A stretch of DNA of 24,364 bases, from IMG/VR virus record IMGVR_UViG_3300025280_000163, positions 1 through 24,364 of that record; one strand, 5' to 3'. Of this stretch, positions 7,398 through 20,120 are shown piece after piece (position 1 is the first letter of the stretch; each line of letters begins with the position of its first letter). Source of the DNA: a virus. The translations under genes were made by a program, and so were the position numbers. Below the pieces are notes generated by a model, which was not told where the DNA came from, ran no database searches, and saw nothing but the letters and a program-made list of their open reading frames with translations.

Positions 7398-9259
7398 TAT
7401 CTTTTTCCGTCTGGTCTCATATCTATTCTAAAAGAACCTAGTCTCCATCCGTAACCAGTACCTGTACTTTCAAATCTAAGTATAGCTTGTCTTGTTCTTG
7501 CTCTTATAAAAGCTTGTTGTGTAGATGAATTAACACTGCTTGTTGTTAAAGTAGTTGGAGTATCTAATGGAAAATTTACACCTTTAACAGAAACAGATAA
7601 CGTATCATCCGTGCTAGTAGAATTTTTAAATTTTAAATCAGGTATTATTCTTGATAAAAACATAAAGTTTTCTCCATCTGGTTCTAAATCAAAATCAGAT
7701 GTTTCTATAAATGCTGTCATGGCACTGCCATCAGCATCATTTCCTATTTCTTGATCATATAAGTAATTAATATTACTACCTGTAGTTTTTTCTGTAGCTA
7801 CTGGATTATCTAAAGAAGGTGCTTCTATCCATGCTGTTCTTGTAAATGAATCTGTATTAGTTCCAATACTCCAAAGATTTTCTAAATAATTAAAAATTAC
7901 ATAACGATCTATTTCATTAGAGTTGGCAGAAGGATAAAACCAAATTATTTCATTTTTATCTACATTTGATGTTCCAAATACTTTGTAAGATTGTCCTAAA
8001 TTTATATCTGAAAATATATAATCTTGTACCGCACAAGGTAACGTACTAACACTTCCGGTATAAACGTAAAAACTACCCCTATCCATAAAAAAAACTTTAT
8101 TATCTGCATTTATAGCAGCATTAGGAGAAATCATAGATGGACCTTGAGCAATTTCACTAAATGTAAATATAAAAGGTGCTCCACTGTAACGCATACTTTG
8201 TATGTTTTTATCAGTCCATATAAGTATTTCTTGTCTAGTTTGCAATGCTCCTATTATAGTTGAACCAGACGATAATCTTTGCCCTCCTGCTGTATTAATA
8301 GAACTTGGTGTCCAATCAATAGAACTTTCTTGATCTGACCATCTAACAAATAAAGGATCAAGTGTTGTTGAACCTATTGGATTTGCACCAAAACATATAA
8401 TGTGTCTATCTATTTCAGATACCATTATTTGCAAAGCAGTTACGGGAGCACCACTTGCATTTGTTAAATCTGAAAATGCTACTGCCCTAGAACTTGTTCC
8501 TCCTGATTCATCCCAATAAAAAATACCACCTAACCTTATGCAACCAACTAAATCATCACCAAAATTATCTTGTGACCAATTTCTTAACTGACTTGTACTA
8601 TCAATATTAGAAGCAGAACCAAAAGTGCCTGCTCCCCATGTTTCAACACCCCAACCTGTTGACTTTACATAAGTATCAAGACCTACATTTATTTGATATG
8701 CTCCGTCTACTCCTGAACCTCCATTTCCCGAATCACTTGAATTTGCAGTAACGGTATTTCCGTCTGTATCTTTAGCCGTAAACGTATATGTATTTACAGA
8801 AGGAGTTGTTACTATTTCATATTCTTGATTTAAAACAGCAGCCGTTATTAAACCACCTAAAGTTGCTGCTCCTGAAATTGTTACAAAATCACCAATAATA
8901 GCTCCGTGACTAGAATCCGTAGCTGTTATTGTAGAAGAACCATCTGTAGCTGCAAAAGTAATGCCGTTAGTAGTAGTAGCTCTAATCGGAGTTACATCAT
9001 AAAAAGAATCTCCTTCTTTTACATACAATTTTAAATGCGTACCTAAACCTATGTAATCTGTTTGTTCTTTATCTCTCCAAGAGTGCATATTTCTGCACGT
9101 TCCTAAAAAAGTATTATTTGTATTTTTTTGCCAACCACCTATTTTTTCAGGTCTGCCACTACGAAATCTAATTTTATCAGAATTAAACCAACCACCTTCT
9201 TCTGCATAAGAAGTTCCTTCTTTATTTATTCCCGGTTTAAATACATATTTTTTTAACAT
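7397..9259 (-). CDS. Tail nozzle / stopper-like structural protein (P22 gp10 / T7 gp12 type)
   Basis: 620 residues from an ATG at 9259, overlapping the endolysin stop by one base. The chain is almost all beta, with many aromatic and Gly residues. The N-terminus (YAEEGGWFNSDKIRFRSGRP with IGGW) and C-terminus (YGWRLGSFRIDMRPDGKR) are typical of the beta-propeller proteins that form the distal tube of podovirus tails. Examples are P22 gp10 (packaged DNA stabilisation) and T7 gp12 (tail tubular protein B), both about 470-800 residues. An inserted Thr/Ser/Gly-rich domain spans about residues 95-185. The repeated blade-like segments include FYWDESGG, FVRWSDQESS, ILIWTDKNIQSM and KVFFMDRGSFYVY. The assignment rests on recognition and context; the family call is fairly secure, the precise homologue less so. 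Confidence 0.65.
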   Translation of the reverse strand: MLKKYVFKPGINKEGTSYAEEGGWFNSDKIRFRSGRPEKIGGWQKNTNNTFLGTCRNMHSWRDKEQTDYIGLGTHLKLYVKEGDSFYDVTPIRATTTNGITFAATDGSSTITATDSSHGAIIGDFVTISGAATLGGLITAAVLNQEYEIVTTPSVNTYTFTAKDTDGNTVTANSSDSGNGGSGVDGAYQINVGLDTYVKSTGWGVETWGAGTFGSASNIDSTSQLRNWSQDNFGDDLVGCIRLGGIFYWDESGGTSSRAVAFSDLTNASGAPVTALQIMVSEIDRHIICFGANPIGSTTLDPLFVRWSDQESSIDWTPSSINTAGGQRLSSGSTIIGALQTRQEILIWTDKNIQSMRYSGAPFIFTFSEIAQGPSMISPNAAINADNKVFFMDRGSFYVYTGSVSTLPCAVQDYIFSDINLGQSYKVFGTSNVDKNEIIWFYPSANSNEIDRYVIFNYLENLWSIGTNTDSFTRTAWIEAPSLDNPVATEKTTGSNINYLYDQEIGNDADGSAMTAFIETSDFDLEPDGENFMFLSRIIPDLKFKNSTSTDDTLSVSVKGVNFPLDTPTTLTTSSVNSSTQQAFIRARTRQAILRFESTGTGYGWRLGSFRIDMRPDGKR

Positions 9260-9702
9260 TAGTTTTCTAAAACTCGTTGTTTTAATCTTTCAGCTCTATC
9301 ACCTACTTGTGTAGCCCATTTGCTATCCATCATTTCTTTTGCAGCTGTTTCAAAATCATTATCTTCCATAGCAGCAAGAAATTTTTTAAATTTACTTAAT
9401 CTTGGATAACCTAAGTTAAAACACATATTTACCATTACTCGTTGTTTATTGTCATTTAAACCTTTCCACCAATGCAAATTACGATCTAATTCATTACAAA
9501 CTATATCTATATCATTATTTAAACAACTTTTAATTCTTTCTTCAGAAACAGGTGTTCCTATTGGTTGATTAATTTCAGGATCACTATCTAAAACTAAATG
9601 ACCAACGCCTAATGTAAGATATCCAAGATGATCTTCATAAGTTTCTTTTTTATATCCTTCGTCAAGAATAAGTTCTTGAATTAATTTATTTCTATCCATC
9701 AT
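9259..9702 (-). CDS. Endolysin, T4-lysozyme-type muramidase (GH24)
   Basis: 147 residues that hydrolyse the beta-1,4 bond between MurNAc and GlcNAc in peptidoglycan. The catalytic triad spacing of T4 lysozyme (Glu11-x8-Asp20-x5-Thr26) is matched exactly by Glu15, Asp24 and Thr30 in DEGYKKETYEDHLGYLTLGV. The second lobe shows NMCFNLGYPRLSKFKKFLAA and W-ATQVGDRAERLKQR, typical of the family, and the length is close to T4 lysozyme (164). There is no signal peptide or signal-anchor, so release to the cell wall would depend on a holin. The start is one of two adjacent ATGs (9702 or 9699) with no good ribosome-binding site. It follows a 76-base structured gap and the spanin genes, completing the lysis cassette. 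Confidence 0.92.
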   Translation of the reverse strand: MMDRNKLIQELILDEGYKKETYEDHLGYLTLGVGHLVLDSDPEINQPIGTPVSEERIKSCLNNDIDIVCNELDRNLHWWKGLNDNKQRVMVNMCFNLGYPRLSKFKKFLAAMEDNDFETAAKEMMDSKWATQVGDRAERLKQRVLEN

Positions 9703-9778: not shown

Positions 9779-10147
9779 CTATTCTTCTTTTTCTTCTTCT
9801 TTATCATAATTTCGATAAAATTTAACTATTCCCAGTATTTCTGTGATGTATCTAGTGATATCTGCCATGTCCATACTTAAATGTTCGTATTCTTTGCTGG
9901 ACAGTGTATAAAATGCCCTTCTTGGTGCTTCATTTTTTTCTAAATTGTCTAAATATAACTGCATACTGTCTGGCGTAAGTATTTCCCAATCTACAGGGTC
10001 CATTTGTACTTCCATTGGCAAAGGTGGATGGTACATCGGTTGTTGTTTAGCAATAGTGGTAACAGAAACAGGCTTAACCTTATCTCCCATTAGAGAACAG
10101 CCTGAAGCTATTAAAGCTACGCTAACTATTAGTATTATCTTTTTCAT
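9779..10147 (-). CDS. o-spanin, outer-membrane lipoprotein (Rz1-like)
   Basis: 122 residues from the ATG at 10147; an adjacent in-frame TTG at 10150 would add one residue. The N-terminus is a lipoprotein signal: MKKIILIVSVALIASGCS with lipobox I-A-S-G-Cys17, so the mature protein should be lipid-anchored by Cys17 in the outer membrane. A Pro-rich patch (YHPPLPMEVQMDPVDW, about 39-54) follows, as in Rz1-type proteins. It ends in an acidic Glu/Lys tail. The start lies inside the preceding i-spanin gene (26-base overlap), the classic Rz/Rz1 arrangement. Together the pair would span the periplasm and fuse inner and outer membranes at the end of lysis. It is longer than lambda Rz1 and has extra C-terminal helix. 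Confidence 0.8.
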   Translation of the reverse strand: MKKIILIVSVALIASGCSLMGDKVKPVSVTTIAKQQPMYHPPLPMEVQMDPVDWEILTPDSMQLYLDNLEKNEAPRRAFYTLSSKEYEHLSMDMADITRYITEILGIVKFYRNYDKEEEKEE

Positions 10148-10523
10148 CAAATTGATTTGGGTCGGTTAATTTTTCTAAGTTTTCTAAAACTCGTTTAGAA
10201 GCCCTATTTATTTTGCCTTGCATAAGTTCTGGTTTTGCTAACGTCAATTCATCTAGGTCATGTTTAGCAAATGTTTTTCTTAATTTATTAACATTACGCA
10301 TCGCTTCTTGTTTTTCTTTTTCTAAAGAAGCCATAAGAGTTTGTGCTTTTTTTTGGTTGTTTAAAGCAGTTTCAATAGCTTCATTTTGTTCTTGAATTTT
10401 GGTTTCTAAGACAAGTTGATTGCCTTTTAACGTACCTATATTATCTTGTAATCTATCAATATACCAAGCTGAACTTGCTATGGTAGCAAGTAATAGTCCA
10501 CCCATTATTAAACCTATTTTCAT
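10122..10523 (-). CDS. i-spanin, inner-membrane coiled-coil protein (Rz-like)
   Basis: 133 residues from an ATG at 10523, two bases after the upstream stop. An N-terminal membrane helix (about 2-21, IGLIMGGLLLATIASSAWYI) is followed by a long coiled coil (about 24-95) rich in Gln, Lys, Glu and Leu, and a C-terminal part with PNQFDEKDNTNS. This is the layout of class-I i-spanins: anchored in the inner membrane with the coiled coil in the periplasm. The lipoprotein gene starts within its last codons, supporting the assignment. The pair is thought to act after the endolysin has degraded peptidoglycan. Confidence 0.8.
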   Translation of the reverse strand: MKIGLIMGGLLLATIASSAWYIDRLQDNIGTLKGNQLVLETKIQEQNEAIETALNNQKKAQTLMASLEKEKQEAMRNVNKLRKTFAKHDLDELTLAKPELMQGKINRASKRVLENLEKLTDPNQFDEKDNTNS

Positions 10524-10525
10524 GG

Positions 10526-10885
10526 TTAATTTGCTAAAGGATTTTTATTGTTATTTTCTAACTTTTCAATATCAGCGAGTATTCTTTCTACGTCGTTAGT
10601 TAAACTAGCAATAGATGCTTTCATATTAGAAAGTTTATCGTTGTTATCAGGAATCTCTATACCATCAATTTCTTTTTCTAAATACTCTACTGCGGTTTCA
10701 ATAGTTGCAAACCTTTGTTCTATAACTTGTTGAGCATCTTCCGTTTCACCTAAACCGCCTATTTTCTTTTCCAAGTTTTCCAGTCTATTAACATAACCTG
10801 CACCTGCATAACCAAATCCTGCTAGAGTGCTTACAATAGTTGCTAAAGCTATTAATTGCCCTGCTTTTGATTTAAACCATTCCAT
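10526..10885 (-). CDS. Membrane-anchored coiled-coil protein in lysis cassette
   Basis: 119 residues from an ATG at 10885 with AGGAG about six bases upstream. Residues ~9-31 (GQLIALATIVSTLAGFGYAGAGY) form a single Gly/Ala-rich membrane helix after a short basic N-terminus (MEWFKSKAG). Residues 32-115 are heptad-like, with repeated NxLEKxIxxL patterns. It is directly upstream of the spanin pair. Single-helix proteins of this kind could be a holin partner, an antiholin or a third envelope-spanning coiled-coil component. I cannot choose between these from sequence alone. Confidence 0.55.
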   Translation of the reverse strand: MEWFKSKAGQLIALATIVSTLAGFGYAGAGYVNRLENLEKKIGGLGETEDAQQVIEQRFATIETAVEYLEKEIDGIEIPDNNDKLSNMKASIASLTNDVERILADIEKLENNNKNPLAN

Positions 10886-10894
10886 ATTTTTCTC

Positions 10895-13366
10895 CTATAA
10901 ATTAGGTTGTTGATTAATTAAACTTTGCATTGTATTAATGTTTGTTCTTGCTAATCCATAAAACGCTTCTATATTATCTGAAATTGTGACATCTTCATAG
11001 ATTGCCTTTGGCTCATACCAAGTTTTTTGTTGTGGAATTTGTACTTCTTTATAAGCATCAAAACCTGAAACATAACCCATAAAAGCTACTAAAGTAGACT
11101 GATCTCCGTATTCTCCTGTTTCTTCTTGGGTAGTTTGTCCTGCTTCTTGTTGTTCTTTTATATTATCAGCAATTATTTGATCTGCTATTTGATCTGCTTC
11201 CGATGCGGTCATTACACCTCCGACAGCAGTATCAATTTCACCTTGCATATCGGTTACTTGCACATCTGCCATAACTACTTGTGGAGTTGAATCAAATATT
11301 GGCATAGGAGTTATTACTGTAGTCACATTACTTACTGTCTGAGTGCTTCCGCCTGTTCCGCTAGTTGAACTCATATCCTGACTTAAACTTAAAACTGTAT
11401 TGGTTTGAACTTGTGCCGTTTGTATTTGATCTGAAATACTAGGAGAACTGCTGGTAGAAAATCCACCCCCTGAAGCTGCACTGGCTACTGCTGTTGTGGT
11501 TGTATTACCTGCGGTACTGCTAACAACAGAACTTCCGCTAGTGGTTGTGCTATTTGATCCACCTGCGCTAGTGCCCCAACTTGATCCACGAGTCGATGTA
11601 CGAGCCGTAGTACCTGAAACACTATTAGTAGCTGTTTGAATAGTGCTGGCTACTACGCTTAGTTGAGTAGCAGTGATTCCACCACTTCTTTCTTCTCTTT
11701 CTTCTAATATCTCTTCTTCTGCTTCAGCTAATCTTTCTTCTTCTATTTCTTCAAAAAGTTCTTCTACCACTTCTTCTTCAAATATTTCTTCTTCTAATAC
11801 TTCTTCTACTTCTTCTATAGTTTCTTCTTCAGCCAGTAATTCTTCTTCTATTCTTTCTTCCTCTATTTGTTCCAGTTCTTCTTCGTACCATTCATCAAGT
11901 TCTTCAACGCTTTCAAATTCTATGTAAGTATCTAAATCCTCGTAGTCCTCTACCAATACAGTTTCATGGAGAATAAAATCTTCTATAAGTTCTTCACTGG
12001 TATCAAAAGGCAAAGGATCGTATTCAATTTCATCGTAAGAAACTAAATAAAGTTCTTCTTCTGCCCATGTTGTTTCTTGTTCTAAATCATATACATCCAT
12101 ACCATCGTCAATGGCTGTCCAATAGTCTTCTTCATTCACAGTTCCGTATTCAATGAAACCATCATTAGAAAACTCTACATCGTTTCCGTACCATTCATCT
12201 ACTTGTTCTTGACCAAACTGCTCTATGTCAAGTGCGTACCAATCTGCATCGGTAAAGTCTATGCAGTTATTTTCGTAACAAGGATCATCTGAGTTTAACC
12301 ACTCATTGTATTCTTCGTCATACCACATATCATCTTGGGTATATCCATAGTCTGTCTCTTCTACATAATAAGCAACAGAGGCTTCTTGTGTGTAACCTGC
12401 ACAAGAGGGGGAGTATTGAGGATCATCTTCGCATTGTTGATCATCATAAGCACTCCAATAAGAAGGACACTCCTGACTGTAAAGCTGAGTTATATTACAT
12501 TGTTGCGTTAAAAAAGCTGCTGTATAACCAGTACAATCCTCATCATATAAAGAATTTAATGCACATTGTTGAGCCAGATAAGCTGCTGCATAACCAGAAC
12601 AGTTAACTGAAGTCAAAGGAGTAGTTGCACATAATGCTTGATTAGTGCCATCACCGTATAAAGAACCACCACCTTCAAGTAAAGTATTGCTGGCTGTATT
12701 ATTCCAATTAGTGTTAACACATGTACCTGCTACGTTAGTTGTGCCTGTGCTACATTCATCGTGAAAAAGATATGTATAAGTTTGTGAGGCACTACCTTGT
12801 TCTCCTATTAAAACATCATGGTTAATGATCTCAAGTTCGCCATAGCGAAACTCATAAGTATTATTAGGGTATAACCAGACTTCAAAACTGTTATCGGAAT
12901 TAGCACGATTGTACTCCCTCATGTTATACCAACCAAAAATAGTATAATCATCAAAGGCTTTGGCTCTCATAGCTGAACCATTATCTTTTATTAGATCGGT
13001 CCAAAAAGGGTAAAGAGTGTAGGTTACTTCTGGTAATGGGTCTGGTGTGTAGTCATTGCAGTAAGCACCACTTGTTTTAAAGTGCAGACAACCATTAGTT
13101 GCCATTCTAGCTTGAGTAAAGGGCTGTCCATAAAAATCAAAAGTAAACCCTATATTAAATGCTCCAGATACTGCATCGTCATTTGAACCTAATCCTGTTG
13201 AACCTGTTGTGTTAGTTTGTAAATCGTATAAAGATTGGTTAGCTTCATAAATGTAATCGGCTTTGGCATTAAAAGATAAAAATAAAACTGTAATTCCTAA
13301 AATTACCATACTTAATACAACAAACCATTCTGCTTTATATTCTGGGTCTGGTTTTTTAGCCCACAT
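10895..13366 (-). CDS. Exported multidomain protein with nidogen-like domain
   Basis: 823 residues from an ATG at 13366, overlapping the upstream gene by 11 bases. A long n-region and hydrophobic helix (about 14-32) end in Ala-Lys-Ala (34-36), a signal-peptidase-I-like site, so the protein is probably exported or anchored. Residues ~37-205 resemble a nidogen-type beta domain: GFTFDFYG, MATNGCLHF, YPFWTDL and FEVWLYPNNTYEFRYG. Then come four 22-residue Cys repeats (246-333), an acidic aromatic Asp/Glu/Tyr region (334-483), a Glu-rich helix (484-559), a Ser/Thr/Gly linker and a C-terminal domain (about 680-823) with ITPMPIFDSTPQVVMADV and KTWYEPKAIYEDV. Proteins of similar architecture occur in uncultured marine phages, but I know of no assigned function. 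Its place between holin and spanin genes suggests envelope or cell-surface action. Confidence 0.6.
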   Translation of the reverse strand: MWAKKPDPEYKAEWFVVLSMVILGITVLFLSFNAKADYIYEANQSLYDLQTNTTGSTGLGSNDDAVSGAFNIGFTFDFYGQPFTQARMATNGCLHFKTSGAYCNDYTPDPLPEVTYTLYPFWTDLIKDNGSAMRAKAFDDYTIFGWYNMREYNRANSDNSFEVWLYPNNTYEFRYGELEIINHDVLIGEQGSASQTYTYLFHDECSTGTTNVAGTCVNTNWNNTASNTLLEGGGSLYGDGTNQALCATTPLTSVNCSGYAAAYLAQQCALNSLYDEDCTGYTAAFLTQQCNITQLYSQECPSYWSAYDDQQCEDDPQYSPSCAGYTQEASVAYYVEETDYGYTQDDMWYDEEYNEWLNSDDPCYENNCIDFTDADWYALDIEQFGQEQVDEWYGNDVEFSNDGFIEYGTVNEEDYWTAIDDGMDVYDLEQETTWAEEELYLVSYDEIEYDPLPFDTSEELIEDFILHETVLVEDYEDLDTYIEFESVEELDEWYEEELEQIEEERIEEELLAEEETIEEVEEVLEEEIFEEEVVEELFEEIEEERLAEAEEEILEEREERSGGITATQLSVVASTIQTATNSVSGTTARTSTRGSSWGTSAGGSNSTTTSGSSVVSSTAGNTTTTAVASAASGGGFSTSSSPSISDQIQTAQVQTNTVLSLSQDMSSTSGTGGSTQTVSNVTTVITPMPIFDSTPQVVMADVQVTDMQGEIDTAVGGVMTASEADQIADQIIADNIKEQQEAGQTTQEETGEYGDQSTLVAFMGYVSGFDAYKEVQIPQQKTWYEPKAIYEDVTISDNIEAFYGLARTNINTMQSLINQQPNL
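11690..11917. repeat. Glu-rich low-complexity tract in the 823-residue protein
   Basis: About 76 codons dominated by GAA/GAG (plus strand TTC/CTT repeats) encode residues ~484-559, rich in Glu with regularly placed Ile, Leu and Val. This predicts a long single alpha helix or coiled coil. The complementary plus-strand frame is a Ser-rich shadow. Confidence 0.75.
12368..12631 (-). repeat. Four 22-residue Cys-pair repeats
   Basis: Cys residues 246, 268, 290 and 312 are exactly 22 residues apart. Each is followed ten residues later by Cys 256, 278, 300 and 322. Most units read C-x9-C-x-G/S-Y-x-x-A. The strict period implies tandem modules, perhaps each with one disulfide, which would need an oxidising compartment such as the periplasm. 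Confidence 0.85.
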
Positions 13367-14564
13367 TATTCCATTCTTTTTTACATTGCTTTGTGGTCTT
13401 AGTGCTTTTCGTTAAAACTTTTCTTACTCCACTTACAACATCTTTGTTGTAGTTTGTATCATTAGGGTTTAGTCCTTTTTTACATTGTTTAATCCAGTCA
13501 GATTTGTATTCTTTAGCGTCTGGTCTTTTGGAAGGATTAGATTTCCAACCATTTGCAGCCTCTTTGCCTATTTTACCCATGTAAGGGCAGGGAGTGCCTG
13601 CCATTTCCATTGCTTGAAACACTCTTTTGTCTTGGCAAAGCACAGAAACTGCTGCAACTTTCATACCCATATCATAGATATATTTACTTAACTTTAACCT
13701 TTCACAATTTTGATCTGTAACTGTTCTGCCACCAGATATACCAAACACTTGTCCTTGAAATGCTCCTGACCGCCCTACGGTACATAAGTCTTGTGAATAA
13801 GACATAATACTTGGTGCGATTGCAGAAGCTGGTGGAGCTTTAGTTTCTATTTCCTGCTTAATTGTTTGTGTGGTATTGGATTCATTGATGTTCCTATTGG
13901 TATTGTCGCTAACGCTGTTGTTGTTATTCGTGTTCGTGTTATCCGTTTCTACCTTTGAATCACTTGTAGATTGATTCACATTAGTATTGGTATTGGTATT
14001 AGTATTGTCCGAAGTGCTGGTGTTGTTATTCGTATTAGTGTTGTTATTCGTACTGGTACTGGTGTTGTTATTCGTATTATTTGTTGTACTCGTACTATTA
14101 GAATCTACTGTACTGTTGACTGTACTGTTACTGGTGTTGGTATTTACATTAGTATTAGTCGCTGTTGAATTATTCGTGTTCGTATTAGTAGCAGTCGAAG
14201 TATTGTTGTTTGTATTGGTTGCGGAACTGGTGTTTACGTTAGTGTTATTACTGGTATTCGTGTTGACGTTAGTGTTGGCATTTGTATTTGTTGCTGTTGT
14301 CGTTGTCGTGTTAGTGTTGACATTAGTATTGGCATTCGTGTTATTTGCTGTACTGGTAGTCGTTGTGGTATTGGTATTGGTGTTTGTATTAGTATTCGTA
14401 TTAACGTTAGTATTGCTGGTTGTGGTGTTGTTAGTTGTGTCTAACGAATTTTGCTCACAATATTGAGTTCCAGCAGTACAATCTGGGTTTTCAGGTTCAT
14501 TATCTGCTGCCCCTAAAAACCCTATAAAAAGCAAAACCGCTGTAAAAGTTATTTTTTTTTTCAT
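13356..14564 (-). CDS. Exported protein with Asn/Thr repeat linker and Cys-containing C-domain
   Basis: 402 residues from an ATG at 14564 (TAATG overlap with the holin-like gene). MKKKITFTAVLLFIGFLGAAD is a clear signal peptide, with likely cleavage after Ala20. A short segment has Cys29 and Cys36. Residues ~43-235 are almost pure Asn/Thr with Ser and Val (NTNVNTNTN units). The C-terminal domain (about 243-402) begins ASAIAPSIMSYSQDLC and contains VLCQDKRVFQAMEMAGTPCP, with several Cys that could form disulfides. I have seen this C-domain in uncultured marine phage genomes, usually near a nidogen-like protein, but no function is known to me. The Asn/Thr linker resembles flexible stalks. The gene overlaps the next exported protein by 11 bases, suggesting coordinated synthesis. 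Confidence 0.6.
   Translation of the reverse strand: MKKKITFTAVLLFIGFLGAADNEPENPDCTAGTQYCEQNSLDTTNNTTTSNTNVNTNTNTNTNTNTTTTTSTANNTNANTNVNTNTTTTTATNTNANTNVNTNTSNNTNVNTSSATNTNNNTSTATNTNTNNSTATNTNVNTNTSNSTVNSTVDSNSTSTTNNTNNNTSTSTNNNTNTNNNTSTSDNTNTNTNTNVNQSTSDSKVETDNTNTNNNNSVSDNTNRNINESNTTQTIKQEIETKAPPASAIAPSIMSYSQDLCTVGRSGAFQGQVFGISGGRTVTDQNCERLKLSKYIYDMGMKVAAVSVLCQDKRVFQAMEMAGTPCPYMGKIGKEAANGWKSNPSKRPDAKEYKSDWIKQCKKGLNPNDTNYNKDVVSGVRKVLTKSTKTTKQCKKEWNNVG
13860..14438. repeat. Asn/Thr-encoding degenerate tandem repeat
   Basis: About 190 codons of AAT/AAC and ACT/ACG (GTATTG, GTGTTC and ATTAGT units on the plus strand) form a degenerate repeat with a base unit of six bases and longer units of 12-30 bases. 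Codon choice varies between copies, so protein composition seems conserved rather than DNA sequence. The hydrophobic Leu/Val plus-strand frame here is a shadow. Confidence 0.8.
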
Positions 14565-14950
14565 TATTTATCTTCGCCTTTAAAAGACTTACTTGACCCT
14601 GAAGTACCTGCGTATAGACCAAACCACGCTGCACCTGCACCTACCACAATAGAAATTAATCCTGATTGCTCAAAACTGGGTGATTCTAAATCCATGAACC
14701 AAAAGGTAGTAAAGTACAGTAAGTACATATAAACGCTTAAAAAAGCTCTTGGAAATATACGCCAACTGTCTACAGCTTGTGCCAAAAATATCCACTTTTG
14801 ATGCGGATTTTTAGTTCCTTCATCTTCTAATTCCCTTATTCTGTCTTTTAAAGTAGATTGTTCTTGCAACAAAGCCATAAACTTACTGAGGTCAATTTCA
14901 ACCTCATTTCTGTCCATGTCTCCACCAAATCTACCTGAACCATCATTCAT
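14564..14950 (-). CDS. Putative holin, two membrane helices
   Basis: 128 residues from an ATG at 14950 with AAAGGAG about seven bases upstream. A charged N-terminal coiled coil (about 13-45, LSKFMALLQEQSTLKDRIRE) is followed by two membrane helices: about 68-87 (RAFLSVYMYLLYFTTFWFM) and 96-114 (SGLISIVVGAGAAWFGLYAG). The tail is hydrophilic, with Ser, Lys and Asp. The AGAAWFGLY ending is one I recognise from holin-annotated proteins of marine phages. A holin would form the inner-membrane lesions that let the cytoplasmic endolysin reach the wall. It precedes two exported proteins, a membrane coiled-coil protein, spanins and the endolysin, which fits a lysis block. Other small membrane proteins at 16541-16890 compete for the holin role. 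Confidence 0.65.
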   Translation of the reverse strand: MNDGSGRFGGDMDRNEVEIDLSKFMALLQEQSTLKDRIRELEDEGTKNPHQKWIFLAQAVDSWRIFPRAFLSVYMYLLYFTTFWFMDLESPSFEQSGLISIVVGAGAAWFGLYAGTSGSSKSFKGEDK

Positions 14951-17432: not shown

Positions 17433-20120
17433 TTACTCCTTATTATTAAGTTGTTTTTCTAAATCTTCCACTTTTGCAGAAAGTTCTTGTAGTGCTTTAG
17501 TTAATACAGGAATTAACTTTCCTTGTTTAACTTCAAGTCTTTCTGGGTTTTCTTCGTACACTAAATCTAATATTTCATTACTGTCGTCTTCCATAGCTTC
17601 TTGTAATTCTTGGGAAATAAAACCAATTCTAGTTTTACCATTGTGTATACTTTCCAAATCTCCTTGAACTAAATTTCTTCTATCCCAAGTAAATTGTACT
17701 GGTCTAATTTTATTGATAAATTCTAAACCATAAGAAGAATCTATAATGTCTTTTTTGTCTCGTCTGTCTGATAGAGAAGATATAGAAGTATCAGCACACC
17801 TTAAAGAACTGACACTAGCATTACCTAAAGTAAATTCGTTAGAGACAGTTGCTCCTGTTGGGTCTGCCTGATTACCGAGACAAGTATTATTAGCACCAGT
17901 TGTAATAAGGTCACCTGCATCATGACCAATCGCTGTGTTATTTGATCCAGTGCTTACTAATGTTAAAGCCCGATCCCCTACAGCCGTATTGTCGGCTGCT
18001 GTCGTATTTGTTGTTAAAGCAGTATATCCAACGGCTGTGTTACCAGCACCTGTCGAGTTTGCATTTAAAGCTTGATAACCAACGGCTGTATTATCTCCTC
18101 CTGTGCTGTTTGATGCTAAAGCACTTCTACCAAGTGCTGTGTTATTTCCTCCTGTCGAATTTGTTGTTAAAGCAATCCAACCAACTGCTACATTATTTGC
18201 TCCTGTGGTATTTGTTGTTAAAGCACTTGTACCAACAGCTGTATTACCTGAAGCTGTGGTGTTTGTAAATCCTGCTCTAAAACCTATAAAAGTATTGTTG
18301 TCTGAAGTCGTAGAAGCATAACCTGCTTGCATACCAAAGAAAGCATTACTTTCACTGTCTGTAAGAGCCTGCCCAGTTTCATAACCCATTATGGTATTAG
18401 ACTGTCCAGTTGTAATAGTATCTCCTGCTTTATACCCCATTGCTGTGTTGTAACTACCTGTGGTAGCTGCTGCTAAAGCACTTTTACCTACAGCAGTGTT
18501 AGCCGTTGCTGTGGTGTTTGCTAACAAAGCACTGTGTCCTACTGCTGTGTTATCATTTGCTGTTGTAAGTGCTCCTAAAGCATCATATCCAATCGCTACA
18601 CTAGCATCGGCAGTTGTAGCAGCATCCATGGCACGTCTACCGACTGCAACATTTTCTGCTCCTGAAGTATTTATATACAGTGCCCTGTTACCGATTGCTG
18701 TATTACCAGACCCTGTTCCAACAGCACCATAAGCATCAGCACCTACAGCAGTTGTATAATCTCCTGAAGTTGTTGCATCCCCAGACCTTGCTCCTAAAAA
18801 TGTATTATAAGAACCTGTGATTGTTTGACCTGCTCCTGAACCAAGTGCTGTATTGTACCCATCAGAACTTGAGTGATTTGTTTCTAATGCTCTAAAACCA
18901 ATACCTGTATTATGACCGTGTGTGGTGTTTCCTTCCCCTGCTTCTGCACCTATATAAGTATTACTAGCACCTGTGGTAACGGCTGTTCCTGCATTATGTC
19001 CTATTGCTGTATTAGAACTTGCTGAAGTATTTGCGTCTAAAGCAAAAGCACCCATTGCTACATTATTTGCACCAGTCGTGTTAGCTACCATCGAACTTTT
19101 ACCAACTGCTGTGTTATAAGTACCAGTGGTAGTTGCTACCATAGATTCTGCACCAACGGCTGTATTGTCTCCTATCGTAGTTACTGCTAAAGCGTTATAT
19201 CCTATGGCAGTATTATTGTTTACAGTAACAGCATCATTTAAAGCATTTACACCAAGTGCTACGTTTTGTACACCTGTAGTGTTTGTTTTTAAAGTCTCTT
19301 CTCCAACTGCTGTATTACTTGAACCTGTAGTGTTAGCTGTTAAAGCTGAAAAACCAATGGCTGTATTATTATCACCAGTAGTAATCGCAGTACCTGCTTC
19401 ATCGCCAACTGTTACGTTGTAGTTACCACCACTTTCAATACTGTTACCTGCGTTGACACCTGCTCTGAAGTTACTTGTTCCTGCTGATGGTGTTGAAATA
19501 TCGCCAGCAACAGAAAGTCCTGCTGCTCCTACTAACATTAAATCATCTGCGGATTCATCCCAGAGCATGTACGCTCCAGATGTTGCTCCGAAGAATTTAA
19601 CGTCATAACCCGTATCGTCTACGCCTACTGTTACTGTTCCTTGGTTGGATAACGCACCAGCATTCGTTAATGCTGCGGTTTTAGTTGTTCCTGCTAAGTT
19701 TACATCCGTTAATACGTCATAAACTACAGCACCAGAACCAGCTCCGTCAGTGGCTATCATTTTTGTTTCACCTGCTAAGATTGCTACGTTAGCCCCACTA
19801 CCTTGCGTAAAGGTAAGTGTATAACTTGTAACATTATCTATTATCCAAATTTTAGACGCTGTATTAGGTGCTAGTGTAACAGTACACGCTTGCCCACCAC
19901 CCGTGAGTTTAAGATACATTCTTCTTGGCTCACTACTTGTTTCTGTTCCATCAGGTATAGTCAATGTAGCTGTTGAAGCATTAGCAACTGCTAAAGTAGC
20001 GTACCCAAAGGCTTCTCCAATAAGTGTTAAATTTGTATTTGTTGTTGTGCCCCAAGTTCCACTACCGTCACCAGTAGCCATTTCGTTGAGTCTTAGGTTA
20101 TTAACGTATGTACTAGCCAT
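17433..20120 (-). CDS. Tail fibre/spike with YadA-like repeats and S74 chaperone domain
   Basis: 895 residues from an ATG at 20120 with AAGAGG about eight bases upstream. The N-terminus (MASTYVNNLRLNEMATGDGS, then WGTTTNTNLTLI) is the usual virion-attachment start of such fibres. Residues ~130-230 form a beta linker. Residues ~234-760 hold about 31 tandem 17-residue units with consensus NTAVGxxALxxNTTGxx, like the NxAxG coils of the trimeric YadA head, so a trimeric beta-roll shaft is expected. The C-terminus is a peptidase S74 intramolecular chaperone. SLSDRRDKKDI gives Ser784 and Lys789, with the Ser-Lys spacing of five of the endosialidase chaperone (Ser911/Lys916), so autocleavage before Ser784 is predicted, leaving 783 residues. 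The final helix (KALQELSAKVEDLEKQL) is a coiled coil. It is probably the receptor-binding fibre. Confidence 0.88.
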   Translation of the reverse strand: MASTYVNNLRLNEMATGDGSGTWGTTTNTNLTLIGEAFGYATLAVANASTATLTIPDGTETSSEPRRMYLKLTGGGQACTVTLAPNTASKIWIIDNVTSYTLTFTQGSGANVAILAGETKMIATDGAGSGAVVYDVLTDVNLAGTTKTAALTNAGALSNQGTVTVGVDDTGYDVKFFGATSGAYMLWDESADDLMLVGAAGLSVAGDISTPSAGTSNFRAGVNAGNSIESGGNYNVTVGDEAGTAITTGDNNTAIGFSALTANTTGSSNTAVGEETLKTNTTGVQNVALGVNALNDAVTVNNNTAIGYNALAVTTIGDNTAVGAESMVATTTGTYNTAVGKSSMVANTTGANNVAMGAFALDANTSASSNTAIGHNAGTAVTTGASNTYIGAEAGEGNTTHGHNTGIGFRALETNHSSSDGYNTALGSGAGQTITGSYNTFLGARSGDATTSGDYTTAVGADAYGAVGTGSGNTAIGNRALYINTSGAENVAVGRRAMDAATTADASVAIGYDALGALTTANDNTAVGHSALLANTTATANTAVGKSALAAATTGSYNTAMGYKAGDTITTGQSNTIMGYETGQALTDSESNAFFGMQAGYASTTSDNNTFIGFRAGFTNTTASGNTAVGTSALTTNTTGANNVAVGWIALTTNSTGGNNTALGRSALASNSTGGDNTAVGYQALNANSTGAGNTAVGYTALTTNTTAADNTAVGDRALTLVSTGSNNTAIGHDAGDLITTGANNTCLGNQADPTGATVSNEFTLGNASVSSLRCADTSISSLSDRRDKKDIIDSSYGLEFINKIRPVQFTWDRRNLVQGDLESIHNGKTRIGFISQELQEAMEDDSNEILDLVYEENPERLEVKQGKLIPVLTKALQELSAKVEDLEKQLNNKE
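17841..19424 (-). repeat. About 31 tandem 51-base (17-codon) repeats in the fibre gene
   Basis: In-frame tandem array encoding NTA(V/I)GxxALxxNTTGxx units. Position 1-5 (N-T-A-x-G) is nearly invariant; positions 6-7 and 16-17 vary most, as expected if those side chains are exposed. A few units differ by one or two residues (for example ETNHSSSDGY and TITGSY). DNA of the copies has diverged at synonymous sites, so the array is old rather than freshly amplified. Confidence 0.85.

Follow-up and report, generated by a model that had tools for sequence, protein, structure and literature searches.

The window analysed here is a virus record of 24,364 bases from IMG/VR (IMGVR_UViG_3300025280_000163), a fragment whose genes form a single long train on the minus strand. 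Within this train three adjacent open reading frames (ORFs), hereafter the trio, encode protein A (402 amino acids (aa), exported; 13356–14564), protein B (823 aa, exported; 10895–13366) and protein C (119 aa; 10526–10885); all coordinates are window positions on the minus strand. The local order is holin candidate–A–B–C–Rz–Rz1–lysozyme, and as far as the spanins neighbouring genes overlap or are very closely spaced. An earlier note, made from the sequence alone, had described A and B as exported proteins inserted between a holin candidate and the spanins; its coordinates, the 11-nucleotide (nt) overlap of the two genes and their joint share of about 15% of the window were exact (15.1%). Its placement of the pair was right as regards the spanins, which are backed by matches to phrog_739 and phrog_812, the holin is still a candidate, and gene C, lying between B and Rz, had been missed.

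The three genes were found to keep company. A search of viral contigs with B yielded 151 relatives, of which 79 loci were retained. A was directly upstream of B in all 68 loci with room for it, mostly overlapping B by 10–62 nt, and a C protein with NPL or NPM at its C-terminus was located downstream of B in 62 of the 64 loci with room; one of the two others is broken (L048) and the second carries C on the other strand (L086). Searches with the A domain matched at least 599 stretches of viral contigs, as well as 20 contigs from prokaryote assemblies, where an exported protein in the B position and then C follow A wherever the contig is long enough, with one unclear case (L186) in which the A frame itself is damaged. 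Because the contig scans were limited to the best 80 matches, near relatives are over-represented in them, and the 20 assembly contigs together with 11 named records constitute a less biased sample. These 11 are the A-bearing entries among 50,697 INPHARED records, and all of them (11/11) show the order A, B-position protein, C, with quite different B heads: the pelagiphages HTVC115P, HTVC033P, HTVC202P, HTVC023P, Baldr (EXVC032P) and the T4-like Mosig (EXVC030M), the roseophages CRP-207 and CRP-810, one MedDCM autographivirus and two Manatee Spring phages. Every record returned from annotated phages by a B query of a second type (CBM-type, described below) also carries A, and the gene order is kept in divergent loci as well. 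Since they are conserved across hundreds of contigs, the A and B frames are not chance ORFs. The earlier note had placed the domain pair in uncultured marine phages, without a function, and contig searches with A and B bore this out; separate occurrence of the two, named in advance as evidence against a joint role, was looked for and did not turn up. The window B itself gave no tblastn match at E<1e-3 among the 50,697 annotated phage records, and B of this type is therefore known only from uncultured phages. At one locus (L145:8398-8799) a different small exported ORF stands between A and B, and the usual overlap is broken.

The constant gene order is accompanied by a match in length. Protein A contains a long Asn/Thr/Ser linker (aa 43–244; 13833–14438), and in 67 non-redundant loci with a nidogen-type B, as in the window, the length of this linker correlates with that of B. 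Phylogenetically independent contrasts (PIC) gave r of 0.77–0.81 for the whole of B on two trees built from different parts, a value reached by none of 20,000 sign permutations, with a slope of about 1.4 residues of B per linker residue; r was 0.59 when the start-truncated L092 and other short-linker outliers were included and 0.79 without them. In 40 aligned sequences the signal was located in B aa 240–720 (phylogenetically corrected r 0.88), most strongly in 345–487, 562–645 and 645–720, and the lengths of aa 1–240 and 720–823 did not track the linker. Neither did the lengths of C, Rz, Rz1, the holin candidate and SNase, which vary little (n = 20–63). Joint change of the A linker and the middle of B in length indicates that the two proteins probably run alongside each other within a single elongated complex, and the match is most simply explained if A is anchored at each end of B. 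A distance-matrix (mirror-tree) comparison of parts of A, B and C was weak and is uninformative, because the holin correlates equally well.

The main alternative to contact is parallel slippage, in which lineages with a shared mutational pressure towards repeat slippage lengthen the low-complexity stretches of both genes, so that the two lengths grow together without contact. Both variable parts are indeed of low complexity, with tandem-repeat calls in the acidic region of B and in the A linker, and slippage there could inflate both lengths. However, aa 345–487 of B, which are not Ser/Thr-rich, covary with the linker (PIC r 0.75), whereas the repeat-rich acidic run 487–562 does not (0.17). The linker also departs from a recent repeat expansion in its codons: it consists of 39% Asn, 30% Thr and 14% Ser in strict two-residue alternation, and its codons are mixed, with the four Thr codons used equally (17/17/16/15) and the Asn codons 40/31, so that it is not a young DNA microsatellite and the alternation is kept at the protein level. 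Both the mixed codon use and the acidic run that is not coupled to the linker speak against slippage, which we regard as improbable, and A and B likely touch over their length. That the two act together, as the earlier note had supposed, is upheld by their invariant synteny and length covariation, and we consider it very probable that A, B and C work together.

Export of A and B was assessed with a simple rule combining hydrophobicity and an A-x-A motif. A signal-like N-terminus was present in 95% of A homologues (137/144) and 95% of B homologues (132/139), whereas among 953 other ORFs of these loci the share was 17%. In A, the signal peptide (aa 1–20; 14505–14564) is followed by a conserved N-terminal module (aa 26–45, NPDCTAGTQYCEQNSLDTTN; 14430–14489), kept in nidogen-type relatives with the pattern GxCTAGxQYCEQNSLDTTN, then by the linker, the segment NTNRNINESNSTQTINQN...APPASAIAPS and a C-terminal domain (aa 245–350; 13515–13832) made of a beta-hairpin and helices with four Cys. 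Among aligned homologues Cys261 and Cys287 are invariant and Cys310 and Cys326 are lost only jointly, six sequences (L072:4906-5424 and relatives) being devoid of exactly this pair (LAQD...TPAP), which makes a disulfide between Cys310 and Cys326 probable. The domain belongs to phrog_20531 of PHROGs v4 (E 2.3e-15; 52 of 52 aligned homologues match), an entry that records no function, structure or partner genes, and it matched no Pfam family. Its AlphaFold2 model, a beta-hairpin followed by helices with a predicted local distance difference test (pLDDT) score of 78 overall and 88–96 in the core, had zero Foldseek matches in the PDB, hence no known fold, and at E<=0.001 retrieved only uncharacterised phage proteins from BFVD. 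Some relatives of A (L001, L169, L173, L177) terminate in a hydrophobic helix. Directly upstream of A, a lipoprotein of 71–86 aa is encoded in CRP-207 (L008:1725-1940), CRP-810 (L009:7558-7818) and a Manatee Spring phage (L011:886-1101); it resembles a miniature paralogue of the helical domain of A, by the A profile in CRP-207 and CRP-810 (E ~5e-5) and by eye in the Manatee Spring phage.

Protein B begins with a signal sequence or N-terminal anchor (aa 1–36, ending AKA-D; 13259–13366), modelled by AlphaFold2 as a helix at 8–31, and continues with a beta-sandwich head (aa 37–240; 12647–13258; a beta-sandwich over aa 38–240 in the model, pLDDT mostly 80–95), Cys-rich helical-hairpin repeats (aa 241–345; 12332–12646), a partly helical acidic stalk of net charge about −87 (aa 346–562; 11681–12331), a disordered Ser/Thr/Gly-rich stretch whose length covaries with the A linker (aa 563–720; 11207–11680) and a conserved C-terminal region with the motif WYxxxxIYxxxxIxDN (aa 721–823; 10898–11206). 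Most Cys of head and repeats are conserved in 46–50 of 50 relatives. The signal sequences, Cys-rich modules and low-complexity linkers first noticed in the window thus all proved real. The proposed nidogen-like domain was loosely right: Pfam NIDO gave no match to the window B at E<=0.5 and only a weak one in 1 of 50 relatives (E 0.027), while a profile of the 50 relatives finds the N-terminal domain of RemA/RemZ (PDB 8gl6 chain D), a gliding adhesin of Flavobacterium that is secreted by the type 9 system, at E 3.2e-11 over RemA 9–170, with FxFxFYG..FTQ...NG.L.F and P.FW.D conserved. The head is thus homologous to the N-terminal ~160 aa of RemA; this link rests on sequence, since the B model had zero Foldseek matches in the PDB. 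Only the head aligns significantly with RemA, the type 9 secretion C-terminal domain being among the parts that do not, and B differs from RemA in its Cys repeats, acidic stalk and tail and in being encoded beside A and C in a phage operon. Relatives differ in how many copies they have of the hairpin repeat (C..GY..AY..QQC....LY..(D/E)C), which bears a weak likeness to CPW_WPC of Plasmodium surface proteins, scoring 16.4 bits, under the cut-off of 23, with E 0.0037 for the best of 50 relatives.

In other phages the protein in the B position carries a different head, a CBM4_9-like jelly roll in pelagiphages (weak, E 0.009) and further types elsewhere. A strongly acidic middle is common to these proteins: of 14 further loci tested, 13 have −15 to −34 charges per 100 residues and L180 has −5. 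Homology between the tails of nidogen-type and CBM-type B was considered and found unsupported at a profile–profile probability of 3%, the visual (F/W)Y..IY..D..DN likeness being no more than suggestive.

Protein C has one transmembrane (TM) helix, a coiled coil and a C-terminus of the form NPL[A/S]x (NPLAN in the window), and is a predicted inner-membrane protein. It adjoins Rz and shares the Rz topology, with an N-terminal TM helix, a periplasmic coiled coil and a conserved tip. The trio nevertheless differs from Rz/Rz1 spanins in the NPL tip of C and in A and B, which are far larger and have no consistent lipobox, and true Rz and Rz1 genes are also present in the window. Two proteins annotated as lysozyme, CRP-207 gp73 (L008:3292-3873) and CRP-810 gp51 (L009:9162-9584), are yet C proteins with TM helix, coil and NPL tail, so that this annotation looks wrong. 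Two C-like proteins, one of them distant from B, are encoded in L001 (9917-10279, 10622-11050) and in L187 (6368-6826, 10300-10611).

In the window, the neighbours of the trio are known or candidate lysis genes. Upstream of A, with a 1-nt overlap, a gene of a family conserved at this position (14564–14950) encodes a candidate holin, which matches only phrog_10198 (function unknown) and is holin-like in having two TM helices and DxWRI(F/I)PR...AAWFGLY. Downstream of C are a Rz-like inner-membrane spanin (10122–10523; phrog_739, E 8e-10), a Rz1-like outer-membrane lipoprotein spanin (9779–10150; phrog_812, E 6e-14, with a lipobox) and a phage lysozyme as endolysin (9259–9702; PF00959, E 1e-12). 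Of the 55 trio loci whose flanks were long enough, 35 have a homologue of the window holin candidate, spanin or lysozyme within ~3.5 kb. Several of the remaining loci adjoin unrelated endolysins, of GH19 (L152, L180), amidase (L004) or M15 peptidase type (L006), and similar company was seen in L083 (SleB-type hydrolase), L011 (GH19) and Mosig (GTA-type holin). A promoter scan was uninformative, with site counts at or below those of shuffled sequences. Elsewhere in the window (17433–20120) an 895-aa tailspike or fibre, which contains numerous NTAxGxxAL repeats along with an S74 chaperone, has its nearest named relative in methylophage Venkman (43% identity).

We propose that A, B and C would form one phage-made cell-envelope complex expressed late with the lysis genes. 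A and B would stand side by side in the periplasm, one end of B held by the small N-terminal Cys module of A and the other by its C-terminal domain, a grip that would force their lengths to match, and C would tether the pair to the inner membrane. The exchangeable B head would bind a host-specific part of the envelope (peptidoglycan, lipopolysaccharide or an outer-membrane protein), and the complex may assist or time envelope opening during the action of holin, endolysin and spanins. Besides the slippage discussed above, several observations weigh against this proposal. The length of Rz is not tracked by the A linker (n = 20, a weak test), so that the spanned gap need not be the periplasm; the window already has ordinary spanins; in L140 the trio is flanked by a helicase gene and the gene for a large protein, away from known lysis genes, and in HTVC202P and the MedDCM phage it stands just before the terminase gene. 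The lysis-region setting seen in the window is hence frequent and not universal, and the trio is better described as a self-contained module of the late region that often, though not in every phage, belongs to the lysis block. Among the roles that had been offered for A and B, namely lysis control, superinfection exclusion, aggregation and adhesion, the evidence singles out none.

A rather unlikely, though serious, alternative places A and B on the surface of the infected cell, where they would serve as an adhesin or fibre whose head binds glycans or neighbouring cells and brings about aggregation or sibling capture. The homology of the head to a gliding adhesin, the weak likeness of other heads to carbohydrate-binding modules and the swapping of heads on a common acidic stalk, typical of ligand binders, all fit such a role, and phage-encoded curli, for which sibling capture has been proposed in pelagiphages (PMC9599517), are a precedent. 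By contrast, no outer-membrane export route was found, the CsgG outer-membrane pore being present in 0 of 27 trio phages tested, whereas the positive control genomes gave a match; the RemA match stops short of the type 9 secretion region; and a late, lysis-linked placement leaves little time to act. The missing route leads us to favour the periplasm over the surface, without being decisive.

Periplasmic phage proteins are known from T4, where those of the Spackle/RI type are small and single-domain; no sequence relation between them and the trio proteins is known. A guard against superinfection, with the trio acting in the periplasm on the tail lysozyme or DNA of an incoming phage, would suit the periplasmic targeting, the Cys-stabilised domains and a fast-changing head engaged in an arms race, and Spackle is a precedent (PMC7677548). 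Spackle, however, is made early, while the trio sits with late genes, which disfavours early exclusion without settling the matter, and its size and three-part make-up are unlike known exclusion factors; we judge this role quite improbable. Least probable are virion appendages (tail fibres or decoration), the outcome that the earlier note would have counted against its view: the elongated, low-complexity, head-bearing proteins are fibre-like and in some phages lie near tail, terminase or internal-virion genes, but Sec signals in ~95% of homologues, disulfides and an inner-membrane partner misfit virions assembled in the cytoplasm, although not decisively, the window has its own S74 tailspike, and Pfam and PHROG profile matches gave no recognisable fibre domain in A or B.

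An envelope-spanning phage complex acting late, at or near lysis, is a tentative reading to which we assign somewhat less than an even chance. As a unit the trio failed to match known kinds, no known family combining all of its defining features, and it is undescribed in the literature searched on these phages. Among its parts, the head of B belongs to a known domain, that of RemA, and the C-terminal domain of A to phrog_20531, a family catalogued without a function. The closest parallel is the pelagiphage curli (type VIII secretion) module, a multi-gene exported envelope module that moves between marine myo- and podophages (PMC9599517, PMC7029224). Both are multi-gene exported sets passed between phage families, but every gene differs, no sequence relation was found, and curli occur patchily whereas the trio is always whole.

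At least hundreds of marine phage contigs, including those of cultured SAR11 phages, bear the trio in their late region. The length match yields a sharp prediction, namely that A and B bind along their length, and cultured carriers exist in HTVC033P, HTVC023P, Mosig EXVC030M and Baldr EXVC032P. In its fullest form, which is possible and in our view doubtful, A and B would make a length-matched, ruler-like rod, tethered by C and carrying a plug-in head through which it is adapted to the envelope of the host, an undescribed machine shared by podo-, myo- and autographivirus lineages that infect marine bacteria, which would add a layer beside holin, endolysin and spanins at cell opening. If the envelope complex is true, lysis of the ocean's commonest bacteria would use parts outside the E. 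coli textbook set.

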